Shown here: piece after piece, positions 5,681-13,898 of the stretch | How positions within the stretch are numbered: the stretch's first letter is position 1 | Layout of the letters: every line of letters begins with the position of its first letter | Assembly: GCA_017307375.1 (NCBI GenBank) | Contig: JAFKFH010000022.1 | Span: 62,001-126,000 of the forward strand | DNA: 64,000 nt | Direction of reading: 5' to 3' | DNA from: Alphaproteobacteria bacterium | Lineage (GTDB): Bacteria; Pseudomonadota; Alphaproteobacteria; Ferrovibrionales; Ferrovibrionaceae | Notes under the pieces: model-generated | The model's input: the letters and a program-made list of their open reading frames with translations, nothing else | Database searches by the model: none | What the model was told of the DNA's origin: nothing | Program-made: the position numbers and the translations under genes

Positions 5681-6406
5681 CTAGAAAGCCAGGCTGGACG
5701 CGCGTGCCAGGCGCCGGGCCACGTCTTCGACCGGTGTCGGCGCCCCGTCGACGGCGTCGGCCAGCGTCGCGATGAGCGGTTCGATGGCGTGCATGGCGAG
5801 ATTGTCGCCGTGGATGTCGGCGCGATAGACCACCTCGTGCAGCCGCGTGCGGCCGGTGGCCGGGTGGTCGGCCGCCAGCATCAGCGCGACGGCCTCGCTG
5901 CGGGCCAGGCTCGAGACGACGCCGAAGCCGACATGCCAGGGACCGATGGCCACGAAGCGGCCGGCAAACAGGGCGCCGGCGGCGACGTTGGCCGCCAGCC
6001 CTTCGTCCATGATGTGCAAGTCGGGTCCGCCTGCGATCAGGTCGCGGGCGCGCACCCCGCCGGCTTCGTGGCCGTCCAGCACTTCGAAGACCGAGAAGAA
6101 CGCATGCGGCAGGCGTGCGGCGATGGCAGCGTCGACGGCATCGTCGTGCTTCGCCTCGCCGGCCAGCCGGTCGATCGCTCGGCTGCCGCTCGCATCGGCG
6201 GAAAACAGCGCGACGTCGATCAGCAGGGTCACCGTCTGCTCGTCGGTGCCCTGCAGGTCGGCGTCGTCGAGTTCGAGGATGTCCTGGGCCAGCGCGACAT
6301 CGTCGGCCGTCACCGCGCCGGCCAGGCGATGGAGCACGCGGTTGAAGGCCTGGCGGAGTGCCGGATAGCCGCCGCGCCCGATGTCGATGACGGTCGCGTC
6401 GCTCAC
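5681..6406 (-). CDS. Protein of unknown function, translationally coupled to smc
   Basis: A 241-aa protein that I do not recognise. The GTG start (6404-6406) shares GTGA with the smc stop, a 4-nt overlap that implies coupled translation; a longer ATG reading from 6583 would lie entirely inside smc in another frame and is rejected. No signal peptide or membrane segment is visible. The first third is helical and acidic; the middle (residues about 105-165) alternates hydrophobic residues like a small beta-barrel; the C-terminus is helical. The tight coupling to smc suggests co-expression with chromosome condensation, but could simply reflect gene packing. Confidence 0.75.
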   Translation of the reverse strand: MSDATVIDIGRGGYPALRQAFNRVLHRLAGAVTADDVALAQDILELDDADLQGTDEQTVTLLIDVALFSADASGSRAIDRLAGEAKHDDAVDAAIAARLPHAFFSVFEVLDGHEAGGVRARDLIAGGPDLHIMDEGLAANVAAGALFAGRFVAIGPWHVGFGVVSSLARSEAVALMLAADHPATGRTRLHEVVYRADIHGDNLAMHAIEPLIATLADAVDGAPTPVEDVARRLARASSLAF

Positions 6407-9400
6407 GCGATCGCTTTGAGCGCTGCGGCACCGGCCAGGTCGACCGAGACGAGGTGACTGACACCACGTTCGGCCATGGTGACGCCGAACAGGCGGTCCA
6501 TGCGCGCCATCGTCACCGGATGGTGGGTGACCACGAGATAGCGCGTGTCGCCCGCCTTGGCCATTTCGTCGAGCAGGTCGCACATGCGCTCGACATTCGC
6601 ATCGTCGAGCGGCGCGTCGACCTCGTCCAGCACGCAGATCGGCGACGGGTTGGTCCGGAAGACCGCGAACAGCAGCGACAGCGCGGTCAGCGCCTGCTCG
6701 CCGCCGGACAGCAGCGACATCACCTGCAGCTTCTTGCCGGGTGGCGAGGCCATGATCTCGAGGCCGGCTTCGAGCGGGTCGTCGGATTCGACCAGCTGCA
6801 GATGGGCGCTGCCGCCGCCGAACACCTTGGTGAACAGTTCCTGGAAATGGCGATCGACCTGCTTGAAGGCGTCCAGCAGGCGTTCGCGGCCTTCCTTGTT
6901 CAGGCTGGAGATGCCCTGGCGCAGCCGGTCGATCGCCGCGATCAGGTCTTCCTTCTCGGTGGTCAGCGTGGTGAACTGTTCCTCAACTTCCTGCGCCTCG
7001 ATATCGGCGCGCAGGTTGACCGGCCCCATCCCGTCGCGCTCGCGCTTCAGCCGGTCCAGACGCTGTTCGACCGCCGGAATCTCCGGCAGGGCCTGGTCGG
7101 GCTCGATCTCGGCCATCGCGTAGGTTTCTTCCGGCGCGACGTCGAGTGCCTCGCGAATCCGGCCGACCAGCTCGGTCAGCACTTCGGCGGCGTGGGTCGC
7201 ATCCGATTCGCGCCGGGCGCGCAGCTCACGGGCGGTCGACAGGGCCTCGGCGGTCTGGCGCGCCTCGCGCTGGCAGCGGGCCAGCGTCTCCTCGGCTTCG
7301 GCCAGGGTCCGCGCGGCCGCGCTGCGCTCGGCTTCGGCCGTGGCGATCGATTCGGCCAGCGTCTCGCGCTTGCGCGCCAGCTCGGCGGGCAGCGCGGCAT
7401 TGTCGGTCCGCTCGGCATGGGCCAGTGCCCGGCGCTGCTCCAGCTCCCGGATCTGGCGCTCGGCATTGTCAGAACGGTTGGCCCAGGACCGGCGCTCGAT
7501 CACGATCGCCTCGGCGCGGCGGGCGCGGTTCATGGCCTCGCGGCGCAGCGTTTCCAGCATGCCGCGCGCTTCGGCCAGCAACTGCCGCTGCTGCTCGAGC
7601 TTGGGGCGCTGGGCCGCCAGCAGGCCGGCGACTTCCTCCGGATGCGGCAGGCGGTCGAGCGCCTCGCGATCGGCATTGAAGCGCGCCTCGGCCTCGTCGA
7701 GGTCGCGGCGGGCCTGGCCGGCGGCCTGGTTCAGGGCTTCGAGGCGGGAGGCGCGGGCGGCAGCCTCGCGCACGACGTTGGCATGATGATCGCGGGCCTG
7801 GCCCAGCGCGCTTTCGGCGAGACGCAGCGCGTCGCGCCGGCGGCCCAGCGCCGCTTCGGCGGCCCCGCGTGCCTCGGTCTGCATCGACTGGGCGCGGTTG
7901 CGCGCCTCGGCCTGCTGCGACTGGGTGCGGCCGCGGGTATCGTCGACGGTGGCCTGGGCGTGGGCGCGCGTCTCTTCCAGCAACTGGCGGGCGGTATGCC
8001 GGGCCTCGTCCAGCGCGGCCTGCGCCTCGCGGCGGGCGGCGTCGCGCGCGGTCTGCGCGGCCTGGCGGGCCTGGGCCAGCAGACCCTGCGCGGCATGGCG
8101 CGCCTCGGCTTCGGCGGCGCGCGCGGTCTCGGTCGCGCCGGCGGCGGCGCGATAGGCGGCCTCGGCGGTTTCACGGGCCGCGCGGGCGCGGTCGAGTTCC
8201 TCGCGCAGTTCGGCCAGGCGGTTCCGCTGTTCAAGGCGTGCCGCGGCCGCGGTCGGGGCGCCGGCGGCCATCGTGTAGCCATCCCAGCGCCACAGCGCGC
8301 CGCTGCGGCTGACCAGCCGCTGGCCCTGGGCGAGGCTTGCGCGCAGGCGTGGGCCGGCGGCATCCTCGACCACCCCGATCTGGCCGAGGCGGCGGGCCAG
8401 CGCGGCAGGACCGGTCACATAGGCCGACAGCGGTTCGACGCCGGCCGGCAAGGCCGGCGCATTGTCCAGCGGCGGCAACTGGTCCCAGTGGGTTGGCGCC
8501 GCCTCGTCCGTGCCGGCGGTCAGATCGTCGCCGAGCGCGGCGCCAAGCGCATGTTCGAAGCCCGGCGTCACCGTCACCGCATCGATCAGCGGCGGCCACA
8601 GATCGCCGTCCTTGGTGGCGAGCAGCTTGGCCAGGCCCGCTTCCTCGGCGGCCAGGCGGGTGACTTCGGCCACCCCGGCGTTCATCGCCTCGCGCGCTTC
8701 CTGCAGCCGGCTCTCCGCCGCGATCCGCGCCTCTTCGGCGCCTTCCAGGGCTTCCTGGCCCTGCAACTCGGCCAGTTCGATGGTGGCCGCGGCCTCGGCG
8801 TCGGCGGCCTCGATCCGCTCGCGCGAGCGGGCTTCCGCCTGCTCGGTCGTCGCGGCCGCTTCGCGTTCGGCCGACTGCACGGCGGCGCGTGCCGCCCCTT
8901 CGGCGGCAGCCAGCGCCGCGCGCCCTTCCGCCTCGGCGGTCTCGATCAGCGTGCGGGCTGCGGCATCCGCCTCCTGCACGGCATCGCGGGTCTCGCCCTC
9001 GACTTCGTCGAGCATGACCCGCGCCTCTTCGGCGGCAAGCGACAGCCGCTCGATCTCCTCGCCCAGCGCTTCCGCGCCGGCCCCGTCGGCGGCACCGCCG
9101 AGCGCGGCGATCTCGGTTTCGAGTTCGGCCAGGCGGGCGCGCAGCCGGCTTACGCGGTCCTCGGTATCGGCGACCAGGCGGGACAGCCGCTGGCGCTCCG
9201 CCCCTTCCTCGGCCGCGCGGCGGGTCAGCGCGTCGAGTTCGGCCTGCGCCGTCTCGGCCGCCTGCTGGCGTTCGGCCACCAGGTCCTCGACCGTCGCCTG
9301 CTCGGCGCCCTCGTCGTCGCGGGCGATCGCGATTTCCTCTGCTTCGGCATCAAGGCGCTCCAGCGCCTCGGCCGAATCGCGGTGCAGCGCCTTCTCGCGC

Positions 9401-10386
9401 GCCAGGTCGGCTTCGGCCTGGTTGATGCGATAGCCGATTTCCTCGAGCTTCTCGATCGCGCGCCGTTCCTCGGCATCGATGCCGTCGCGGGCGACGGTCA
9501 GCCGGTGCAGGCGGGCCGATGCCTCGGCCTCGGCCATGCGGGGGCCGGGCACGGCCTCGGCGGCATTGGCCTCGGCGACCGTGGCCGACGACGCCGCCTC
9601 GGTCAGCTGTGCGACGGCCATCGTCGATTCGTTCAGCCGCGCTTCCGCCTCGGCCTGGGCGGTTTCGGCGGCCTTGTAGCGCAGGTGGAACAGCAGCGCT
9701 TCGTTCTTGCGGATCTGTTCCTGCAGGTTGCGGTAGCGGCTGGACTGGCGCGCCTGGCGCTTCAGGTTGCCCAGCTGGACCTCGAGTTGGGCCAGCACGT
9801 CGGAGACGCGCTCCAGGTTGGTTTCGGCAGCCTTCAGCCGCAGCTCGGCCTCGTGGCGGCGCGAATGCAGCCCGGCGATGCCGGCCGCTTCCTCGAGCAG
9901 CGCGCGCCGTTCCTGCGGCTTGGCGTTGATCAGCGCGCCGATGCGGCCCTGGCTGACCAGCGCGGTCGAATGGGCGCCGGTCGCCAGGTCGGCGAACAGC
10001 AACTGGACGTCGCGGGCGCGCACGTCGCGTCCGTTGATACGATAGTTCGAGCCCGATTCGCGCTCGATCCGCCGGACGATCTCCAGTTCCTCGGCATCGT
10101 TGAAACCGACCGGCGCGCGGCGCGACGAGTTGTCGAGGTGAAGGGTCACCTCGGCCAGGTTGCGCGCCGCGCGCGTCGTGGTTCCGGCGAAGATGACGTC
10201 ATCCATCGCCGAGCCGCGCATCTTCTTGGGGCTGTTCTCGCCCATGACCCAGCGCAGCGCCTCGACCAGATTCGACTTGCCGCAGCCGTTCGGACCCACC
10301 ACCCCGGTCAGGCCGGGATTGATGAGGAACTCGGTCGGTTCGACAAACGATTTGAAGCCGGACAGGCGCAGGCGGGTGAACTGCAC
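6403..10386 (-). CDS. smc: Chromosome segregation ATPase SMC (1327 aa, long arms)
   Basis: Condensin-type ATPase that dimerises at its hinge and compacts the chromosome with ScpA/ScpB. Walker A GPNGCGKS is at residues 31-38, the ABC signature LLSGGEQ near 1225 and Walker B CVLDEVDAPLDD near 1255. The hinge lies at about 595-705. At 1327 aa it is about 130-170 residues longer than typical bacterial SMC; the excess is Ala/Glu/Arg-rich helix on both sides of the hinge (about 460-590 and 740-850), so both arms seem lengthened together. The start is GTG with GGGGAG 10 nt upstream. It lies 39 nt downstream of the dsbA-like gene with no clear promoter between, so it is probably transcribed from the promoter at 11059-11088. 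Confidence 0.95.
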   Translation of the reverse strand: MQFTRLRLSGFKSFVEPTEFLINPGLTGVVGPNGCGKSNLVEALRWVMGENSPKKMRGSAMDDVIFAGTTTRAARNLAEVTLHLDNSSRRAPVGFNDAEELEIVRRIERESGSNYRINGRDVRARDVQLLFADLATGAHSTALVSQGRIGALINAKPQERRALLEEAAGIAGLHSRRHEAELRLKAAETNLERVSDVLAQLEVQLGNLKRQARQSSRYRNLQEQIRKNEALLFHLRYKAAETAQAEAEARLNESTMAVAQLTEAASSATVAEANAAEAVPGPRMAEAEASARLHRLTVARDGIDAEERRAIEKLEEIGYRINQAEADLAREKALHRDSAEALERLDAEAEEIAIARDDEGAEQATVEDLVAERQQAAETAQAELDALTRRAAEEGAERQRLSRLVADTEDRVSRLRARLAELETEIAALGGAADGAGAEALGEEIERLSLAAEEARVMLDEVEGETRDAVQEADAAARTLIETAEAEGRAALAAAEGAARAAVQSAEREAAATTEQAEARSRERIEAADAEAAATIELAELQGQEALEGAEEARIAAESRLQEAREAMNAGVAEVTRLAAEEAGLAKLLATKDGDLWPPLIDAVTVTPGFEHALGAALGDDLTAGTDEAAPTHWDQLPPLDNAPALPAGVEPLSAYVTGPAALARRLGQIGVVEDAAGPRLRASLAQGQRLVSRSGALWRWDGYTMAAGAPTAAAARLEQRNRLAELREELDRARAARETAEAAYRAAAGATETARAAEAEARHAAQGLLAQARQAAQTARDAARREAQAALDEARHTARQLLEETRAHAQATVDDTRGRTQSQQAEARNRAQSMQTEARGAAEAALGRRRDALRLAESALGQARDHHANVVREAAARASRLEALNQAAGQARRDLDEAEARFNADREALDRLPHPEEVAGLLAAQRPKLEQQRQLLAEARGMLETLRREAMNRARRAEAIVIERRSWANRSDNAERQIRELEQRRALAHAERTDNAALPAELARKRETLAESIATAEAERSAAARTLAEAEETLARCQREARQTAEALSTARELRARRESDATHAAEVLTELVGRIREALDVAPEETYAMAEIEPDQALPEIPAVEQRLDRLKRERDGMGPVNLRADIEAQEVEEQFTTLTTEKEDLIAAIDRLRQGISSLNKEGRERLLDAFKQVDRHFQELFTKVFGGGSAHLQLVESDDPLEAGLEIMASPPGKKLQVMSLLSGGEQALTALSLLFAVFRTNPSPICVLDEVDAPLDDANVERMCDLLDEMAKAGDTRYLVVTHHPVTMARMDRLFGVTMAERGVSHLVSVDLAGAAALKAIA

Positions 10387-10425: not shown

Positions 10426-11028
10426 TTACTTGATCAGCGGATCGACGATCTTCTTCAGATCGGCCAGCGACGCCGCGCCCGGATAGTTCTTGTCGTTGAT
10501 GATCAGGGTCGGGGTCGAGTTGACCTTGTACTTGGTCTGACCTTCCATGCGCGAGTTCAGCACGGCTTCCTCCAGCGCCTTGTCGGCCAGGCACGCATCC
10601 ATCTGCGCGTCCGACAGGCCGCCGAACTTGCCGATCTGCTTCAGCGCCGCCAGCGGATCCTTGGCGGCCGCCCACTGCGCCTGCTGGCGGAAGAAGACGT
10701 CGACGAAGCCGGCGGCGCGGTCCGGACCGCCACAGCGCGCGATCTGCGAGGCGCGCAGCGCAATGCCATCCAGCGGGAAGTCGCGGTAGACGATCTTGAC
10801 CTTGCCGGTCTCGATGTACTCCTTCTTGAACTCGGGCAGCGTGCCGGTCTGGAACGTCGCGCAATGCGGGCAGGTCAGCGACGCGTATTCGATGATGGTG
10901 ACCGGCGCCTCGGGCTTGCCGACGACGATATCGCCGGTGAAAGCCTGGGCGCTGGCGGTGCCGGCGCTCGCGGCGAAGCCGACGAAGGCAAGCAGCATAA
11001 GAGCAACAGTGCTCAACATGCGCGACAT
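10426..11028 (-). CDS. DsbA-family thiol:disulfide oxidoreductase, periplasmic
   Basis: Periplasmic thioredoxin-fold oxidoreductase of 200 aa. A signal peptide ends at AGTASA (cleavage near residue 27), the redox motif C53-P-H-C56 follows the first strand, and a cis-proline loop STPTLII lies in the C-terminal half; this order fits the DsbA/DSBA-like thioredoxin family (PF13462 type). It would oxidise or isomerise exported proteins. The ATG at 11026-11028 has GAGG 6 nt upstream, better than the TTG at 11040. It is the first gene after a good promoter and is followed closely by smc. Neighbours dciA and mutY match the usual alphaproteobacterial order. I do not assign dsbA itself because several paralogues are common. 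Confidence 0.88.
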   Translation of the reverse strand: MSRMLSTVALMLLAFVGFAASAGTASAQAFTGDIVVGKPEAPVTIIEYASLTCPHCATFQTGTLPEFKKEYIETGKVKIVYRDFPLDGIALRASQIARCGGPDRAAGFVDVFFRQQAQWAAAKDPLAALKQIGKFGGLSDAQMDACLADKALEEAVLNSRMEGQTKYKVNSTPTLIINDKNYPGAASLADLKKIVDPLIK

Positions 11029-11058
11029 GATTAACCTCAACCTACAAGATGTAGGGGC

Positions 11059-11088
11059 AGTATAGGGGCTGCCCCGCTACCCCTTCAA
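11059..11088 (-). promoter_or_regulatory. Sigma-70-type promoter for dsbA-like gene and probably smc
   Basis: On the minus strand TTGAAG (11083-11088) and TATACT (11059-11064) are separated by 18 nt, about 30 nt before the dsbA-like start codon. Two DnaA boxes lie just upstream (from 11104), close enough for DnaA to contact RNA polymerase. There is no better promoter between this gene and smc. Confidence 0.6.
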
Positions 11089-11103
11089 CGCGACTCCCGG
11101 GCC

Positions 11104-11138
11104 TTATCCACAGGAATCAGCGCTTATCCACAGGATTC
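11104..11138. promoter_or_regulatory. Tandem DnaA box plus GANTC modules
   Basis: Two perfect DnaA boxes TTATCCACA at 11104-11112 and 11124-11132, exactly 20 nt apart in the same direction. Each is followed after one G by a CcrM site: GAATC at 11114-11118 and GATTC at 11134-11138. The 13-mer CTTATCCACAGGA is thus repeated. The second copy begins at the dciA stop codon and runs into its coding end; the first starts 16 nt upstream of the -35 of the dsbA/smc promoter. Sites seen directly; regulatory role inferred. Confidence 0.8.
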
Positions 11139-11633
11139 TCGGGCCTCTTTGCGGCGTGACAATGACCGGCCCAGCCGTTGCATCTGCGCGCGCAGCCCGG
11201 GGTCGGCGATGCCAGCGGTCATCGCGATCAATCGTTCCTCCGCCGCCGAATCGAGCGGCACGGACGACGAGACCGGCTTGGGCGGCGGCACCGGCAGCGG
11301 GCCATGCACGAGCTTCAGCCGGCCGACCGCATGGAAACCGTAGAAGACGTTGATCCGCTCGACGATCAGCGGCTCGAGATGCTGGATGTCCGGCGCGTAG
11401 CCCGGCGCGACCCGTAGGGTCAGGGTGGCATTGGCCGCGGCGCCCTTGGGAAAATGCAGCCGCTCGGGTGCCGACATCCGCGCCAGTTCGGCCCCCACCA
11501 CCTCGGGCCAACGGGTCAGGACCGCGCCGGCGAAAAAGCCGCGCGCCTTGAACGCCGGCTTGGTCAGCCGGGTCAGGAACCGGGCCAGCTTGCGGCCGCC
11601 GGGCGCGCGGGGTATGGAGTCGTCCTCGTCCAT
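11124..11633 (-). CDS. dciA: DciA-like DUF721 protein (replicative helicase operator)
   Basis: 169-aa protein of the DUF721 family. In bacteria lacking DnaC/DnaI, DciA loads or assists the DnaB helicase. The family core spans about residues 12-110: basic helices (KLARFLTRLTKPAFKARG) then WPEVVGAELARMSAPERL and a beta segment ATLTLRVAPGYAPDIQH. The C-terminal third is proline/serine rich and basic, as in alphaproteobacterial relatives. It is divergent from mutY and upstream of the dsbA-like gene, the usual arrangement in this class. The -10 box TATAAT sits only 7 nt before the ATG, so the transcript may be leaderless. Its last codons overlap the second DnaA box. Confidence 0.85.
   Translation of the reverse strand: MDEDDSIPRAPGGRKLARFLTRLTKPAFKARGFFAGAVLTRWPEVVGAELARMSAPERLHFPKGAAANATLTLRVAPGYAPDIQHLEPLIVERINVFYGFHAVGRLKLVHGPLPVPPPKPVSSSVPLDSAAEERLIAMTAGIADPGLRAQMQRLGRSLSRRKEARESCG

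Positions 11634-12767: not shown

Positions 12768-13898
<1,131 letters not shown>

Follow-up and report, generated by a model that had tools for sequence, protein, structure and literature searches.

We analyzed a 64-kb stretch of DNA (64,000 nt; the window) from a draft genome of 7.54 Mb in 41 contigs. It carries, all on the minus strand, genes for the methyltransferase CcrM, the helicase loader DciA, a DsbA-like protein, and SMC (Table 1), and Pfam also confirmed MutY in this neighborhood. The ccrM product closely matches Caulobacter CcrM (6pbd; E=1.1e-165), and its gene lies 1.6 kb from the DnaA boxes that concern us here. Besides encoding CcrM, the host genome contains GcrA and a protein with the C-terminal domain of DnaA. 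A consensus scan found a promoter upstream of dsbA and none in the 39-bp spacer between dsbA and smc, so these two genes probably form a single transcript.

Table 1. Features around the dsbA-smc promoter (positions in the window)
Feature	Position	Strand	Remarks
smc	6403..10386	-	Pfam SMC; 39 bp after dsbA
dsbA-like gene	10426..11028	-	Pfam Thioredoxin_4/DSBA; probable ATG at 11028 by sequence inspection
Weak second NrdR-like half-site	11011..11026	-	31 bp downstream of the palindrome, over the dsbA start
NrdR-box-like palindrome, CCCCTACATCTTGTAG	11042..11057	-	At the inferred transcription start
-10 hexamer of dsbA-smc, TATACT	11059..11064	-	Consensus scan
-35 hexamer of dsbA-smc, TTGAAG	11083..11088	-	Consensus scan; 15 bp from box 1
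Third GANTC site	11092..11096		Just upstream of the -35 hexamer; not mentioned in the initial annotation
DnaA box 1, TTATCCACA (TGTGGATAA read towards dsbA)	11104..11112	+	Perfect; intergenic
GANTC (CcrM) site, GAATC	11114..11118		One base from box 1
DnaA box 2, TTATCCACA	11124..11132	+	Perfect; overlaps the dciA stop codon; window lineage only
GANTC site, GATTC	11134..11138		One base from box 2; within the last dciA codons
dciA (helicase loader/operator family)	11124..11633	-	Pfam DciA; ends in box 2
ccrM (GANTC adenine methyltransferase)	12768..13883	-	Pfam N6_N4_Mtase and RAMA

Read towards dsbA, the minus strand runs ...GAATCC TGTGGATAA GCGCT GATTCC TGTGGATAA GGCCCG GGAGTC GCG TTGAAG (-35) N18 TATACT (-10), and then GCCC CTACATCTTGTAG G TTGAGGTTAATC ATG, where the ATG is that of dsbA. 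The initial annotation described two perfect DnaA boxes 20 nt apart, each with a GANTC site one base later, and the coordinates bear this out: the boxes point in the same direction and are spaced by 20 bp. It also placed both of them between dciA and the promoter. That is correct for box 1, whose center is at about -56 relative to the inferred transcription start, but not for box 2, which together with its GANTC forms the last codons of dciA (GAA TCC TGT GGA TAA) and supplies the stop codon. With the third site, there are three GANTC sites within 47 bp, all of them within 80 bp of the -10 hexamer.

Both elements are scarce. The window has three-fold fewer GANTC sites than expected (91 versus 276), so that finding three of them in 47 bp is the more notable. 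Perfect DnaA boxes number just 10 in the 7.54 Mb of the host genome, and boxes 1 and 2 are the sole doublet among them; the 64-kb window has no further box with up to one mismatch. Similarly, TTATCCACA-N0..4-GANTC occurs in the host genome at these two sites only. Given 10 sites, simple arithmetic yields an expectation of ~4e-4 pairs within 30 bp. The two copies are not independent, since a single tandem duplication of 20 bp would produce the pair, and as sequence evidence the conservation of box 1 is stronger than the doublet.

The initial annotation had named a lack of conservation in close relatives among the findings that would refute it, and the relatives do not show such a lack. We located and oriented the dciA-dsbA loci of relatives with tblastn, in a sample of the order that comprised 18 genomes from 7 genera (Ferrovibrio is genus g5). 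Thirteen genomes have a perfect box between dciA and dsbA: that of the window, those of genera g2 and g3, and each of the 10 from Ferrovibrio. The conserved box corresponds to box 1, and it always has the same direction and lies 13-15 bp upstream of the dsbA-smc -35 hexamer. When we searched for this promoter pattern (TGTGGATAA-N12..17-TTG-N16..19-TANNNT), it was found in 13 of the 18 genomes, with 0 matches for the controls, and every one of these 13 genomes has one match in the dciA-dsbA gap. In the alignment of the gap, the box is the best-conserved window of 9 columns, with an identity of 1.00; the GANTC-bearing hexamer beside it has 0.87, and identity elsewhere is 0.54-0.71.

The GANTC beside the box (GATTC) is kept in 11 of the 13 genomes (the window and 10/10 Ferrovibrio), and most Ferrovibrio have GAGTC at the place equivalent to the third site. 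Genera g2 and g3 retain the box without an adjacent GANTC, and genus g7 has no box in the gap, so the pairing of box and GANTC is not universal. In genus g6, we either reached the end of the contig or did not find dciA. In genus g4 (Desertibaculum; L016 and L017), dciA is followed by an apparent CDP-alcohol phosphatidyltransferase gene instead of dsbA-smc. Box 2 has no counterpart among the relatives in the order, all of which are from other genera. By these comparisons, box 1 is under constraint and is probably an ancestral element; box 2 looks like a duplication of 20 bp, private to the window lineage, that reaches into the end of dciA.

We then considered 92 distinct dciA-dsbA gaps, including 77 from outside the order. 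Perfect boxes are present in 18 of the 92, versus 0.09 expected, and there are none in the mutY-dciA gaps, the dciA coding regions, or the dsbA coding regions of those loci. GANTC is enriched in the 92 gaps (101 seen and 48 expected) and depleted in coding sequence. Outside the order, a perfect box occurs in 6 of the 77 gaps, versus 0.07 expected. The distance from the box to the -10 is 37-41 bp for forward boxes (39 in the window) and 53 bp for reversed boxes, which were seen in Magnetovibrio and three other loci. One locus (L067) was scored at 76 bp because a later -10 was picked, and the distance by eye is 38 bp; another (L114), with a forward box at 52 bp, stands apart from both groups. 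Boxes with one mismatch are also in excess outside the order (17 versus 2.25 expected), and at least 4 loci, where the start-site palindrome overlaps with TGTGGATGA or TATGGATAA, inflate this count; we therefore relied on the perfect boxes. Overall, the genome counts, the conservation, and the shuffles all reject chance, which the initial annotation had already judged to be an unlikely origin.

A search for the rigid promoter pattern across the class was uninformative outside the order: 43 of 289 genomes matched, the matches did not greatly exceed those of the reversed control, and AT-rich genomes were common among them. In other Rhodospirillales, we noticed a double GANTC (GAKTCGACTC) upstream of the dsbA -10 or a GANTC that touches it (GATTCTATA); these loci are L061, L067, L070, L082, L093, L095, L105, and L114.

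The combination of box and GANTC is not limited to dsbA-smc. Across the 18 genomes of the order, TTATCCACA-N0..4-GANTC has 25 matches, versus 1 for the reversed pattern. Twelve of these are at dsbA-smc (in 11 genomes), 6 are at gcrA (in Ferrovibrio), 4 are at uvrC (in G002, G015, and G016, plus G001 by the same flanking sequence), and 3 are at other places. In several species of Ferrovibrio, the gcrA promoter reads GATTC-T-TGTGGATAA-N5/6-GAGTC-YgRTTGACC, with the box, GANTC, and -35 in the same order and at the same spacing as at dsbA-smc. The gcrA promoter of the host genome has a one-mismatch box, TGGGGATAA, 13 bp from TTGACC, with no adjoining GANTC. Other perfect boxes in the host genome lie upstream of dnaB, uvrC, and a ribonucleotide reductase gene.

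Inspection of individual loci gave further detail. Besides one or two DnaA boxes, the gcrA promoters of Ferrovibrio (L223-L230 and L232-L234) contain several GANTC sites, in some species 12 bp apart. Several genera share a uvrC promoter of the form TTATCCACA-(G)GANTC-(C)GTGGATA, in which a box is followed by a GANTC and then by a partial box in inverted orientation (L254, L267, L268, L269, and L008). The region upstream of the host's dnaB (L004, G000:C3:179131) has one perfect and two one-mismatch boxes, and the perfect box near the ribonucleotide reductase reading frame is ~145 bp upstream (L007/L213, G000:C18:142738). In another genome, a box and GANTC lie inside the end of the upstream gene, ~200 bp before an apparent lexA (L255, G002:C24:2766).

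Unexpectedly, the dsbA-smc promoter also has candidate NrdR sites, which hint at sensing of dNTPs. In nearly all of the 92 loci, a palindrome (CNACATCTWGTRG) lies at the inferred transcription start, and it resembles the NrdR consensus, acaCwAtATaTwGtg(t) (PMC4009431). NrdR requires two boxes (PMC12051234), so we first doubted a single NrdR box, and the spacing profile then revealed a phased second site. Taking the first box as the anchor in 58 non-redundant loci, we obtained 29 counts of good second sites at 30-33 bp and 24 counts at 41-42 bp, where spacings were counted separately and one locus may count twice. Good second sites at other spacings are rare, except for 19 and 44. Pairs in helical phase beat pairs shifted by a half-turn in 77 of the 92 loci, and the reverse is true in 9. 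In each of the 17 gcrA promoters that we examined, an in-phase pair exceeds the 95th percentile of shuffles. Of the two boxes in the window, the first is good, and the second is a weak half-site only; the second is stronger in most relatives.

Tandem NrdR-like palindromes span the start of dsbA-smc (L055-L134) and of gcrA (L223-L239) in many alphaproteobacteria, and in the same genomes some promoters of ribonucleotide reductase genes have similar boxes. The same palindrome (CAACATCTGGTAG) is present at the start of an apparent parE, for topoisomerase IV, in a Ferrovibrio (L163, G014:C1:3777908). Like NrdR operators, which are tandem 16-bp sites in helical phase, these putative boxes are repeated at a distance of 30-33 or 41-42 bp at most dsbA-smc loci and at gcrA promoters; unlike them, their targets are not nrd genes, and the second box of the window is only a half-site. 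The pattern was found post hoc and many of the loci are related, and the locus stretches that we examined do not include an NrdR gene. As operators, the NrdR-like boxes are a strong lead and not a result. We did not find any paper that proposes NrdR boxes at dsbA-smc or gcrA.

The module of DnaA box and GANTC at this promoter is, as a matter of sequence, real and conserved. We think it likely that the dsbA-smc promoter is DnaA responsive, linked to CcrM and GcrA, of the gcrA type, and that it times dsbA-smc to replication. The initial annotation had proposed that expression of smc and dsbA is tied to replication, and this proposal gains comparative support from the conservation, from the recurrence of the module at gcrA and uvrC, and from the presence of ccrM and GcrA. 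DnaA would bind box 1, ~56 bp upstream of the transcription start and directly behind the -35, and box 2, about two helical turns upstream of box 1, would provide another site. Bound DnaA would modulate RNA polymerase at dsbA-smc, most likely as an activator, as it does at the gcrA promoter of Caulobacter. The GANTC sites beside the boxes would be fully methylated before the fork passes and hemimethylated afterwards, and they may gate DnaA, recruit GcrA, or both. As gcrA of the relatives has the same module, the result would be a feed-forward loop, in which DnaA acts on gcrA, and DnaA together with GcrA/CcrM acts on dsbA-smc. SMC would then be made when chromosomes start replicating. We infer DnaA binding, GANTC methylation, and the sign and timing of regulation from these sequence patterns.

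This proposal has precedents. In Caulobacter, DnaA directly activates gcrA, ftsZ, mipZ, and hdaA, its regulon includes nrdB, and the gcrA and mipZ promoters have a single DnaA box each (PMC3193534). GcrA binds methylated GANTC promoters and recruits RNA polymerase, by a mechanism that is conserved in alphaproteobacteria (PMC3667746). Like the gcrA promoter of Caulobacter crescentus, the dsbA-smc promoter serves an S-phase gene and has a DnaA box upstream, and the Ferrovibrio gcrA promoters provide a link, with the order box-GANTC-GANTC-(-35) as at dsbA-smc. As in DnaA-activated promoters, a perfect box lies in the promoter region, at a fixed position in the relatives. It differs from the Caulobacter gcrA promoter in its target, in the GANTC that abuts the box with a fixed spacing of one base, and, in the species of the window, in having two tandem boxes. 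It resembles the GcrA-CcrM promoters of alphaproteobacteria in that GANTC is enriched in the promoter and both CcrM and GcrA are present; unlike at those promoters, a DnaA box is combined with GANTC in one module, and the GANTC sites here are candidates from sequence. DnaA-regulated promoters of nrd genes, such as E. coli nrdAB and Caulobacter nrdB, are also similar in that the boxes are at replication-linked genes, including the host's ribonucleotide reductase gene, but they differ from dsbA-smc in target and architecture.

Whether DnaA activates or represses cannot be read from the position of a box alone. DnaA represses some promoters in other bacteria, and ATP-bound DnaA might hold dsbA-smc off until initiation consumes or inactivates ATP-DnaA. 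At four other Rhodospirillales loci, the box is inverted and 14 bp further up, so a single simple activating contact does not suit every locus. However, the boxes are upstream of the -35 and not over the core promoter, and their geometry is shared with gcrA, which is activated by DnaA in Caulobacter (PMC3193534); we consider repression to be unlikely. It is improbable that DnaA is uninvolved, with a different factor binding the 9-mer or an unrelated cause behind its conservation: the 9-mer is the exact DnaA consensus, the genome encodes a protein with the DnaA C-terminal domain, and the targets (dnaB, uvrC, ribonucleotide reductase, and gcrA) resemble a DnaA regulon. A coding constraint on the tail of dciA was ruled out as the cause of conservation, because the DciA tail is not conserved.

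The boxes might instead titrate DnaA, as datA or DARS sites do, with the promoter being incidental. Strong boxes are rare enough in this genome for a pair to bind an appreciable part of the DnaA, but there are just two, with no further near-matches in 64 kb; what is conserved is a single box at a fixed position relative to a promoter, a geometry that titration leaves unexplained, and the module recurs at the gcrA and uvrC promoters. We find this quite improbable. The initial annotation also raised a secondary origin-like element. DnaA boxes adjoining dciA and ccrM might suggest a secondary or even the main origin, but there is no cluster of boxes in the window and the surroundings are GC-rich. 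In the one complete relative, a Ferrovibrio (G014, in 20-kb samples), the cumulative GC skew has its minimum at ~1.2 Mb, whereas the orthologous locus is at 2.16 Mb, ~0.9 Mb away. We ruled out the origin reading on the number of boxes and the GC skew, and give it next to no probability.

We return to the activating, replication-timed promoter as our preferred reading. It is known in kind from Caulobacter; it is new as a control element of dsbA-smc and in its fixed combination with GANTC, and our literature searches on smc with DnaA boxes, GANTC, or CcrM did not return a paper on the dsbA-smc promoter, or one connecting smc with control by DnaA or GANTC. Possibly, sensing of dNTPs is layered on top of the DnaA/GANTC module. 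More speculatively, and with somewhat less than even confidence, dsbA-smc and gcrA of these alphaproteobacteria may form one class of promoter with three inputs: the DnaA box, the adjoining GANTC, and tandem NrdR boxes. If so, the box and GANTC behind the -35 would read replication initiation and fork passage, and the NrdR boxes, which cover the transcription start and the start codon, would read the level of dATP/ATP. A condensin gene and a master regulator of S phase would then be on only with active DnaA, correct methylation, and no excess of dNTPs. In Caulobacter, high dNTP levels were reported in 2025 to delay S phase, by an undefined mechanism (PMC12186491); the NrdR-like boxes, if they are real operators, would offer one possible route. 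It is poorly understood how bacterial cells adjust their condensin supply to replication, and the module that is common to dsbA-smc, gcrA, and uvrC would define, by sequence, a testable DnaA/CcrM regulon outside Caulobacter.
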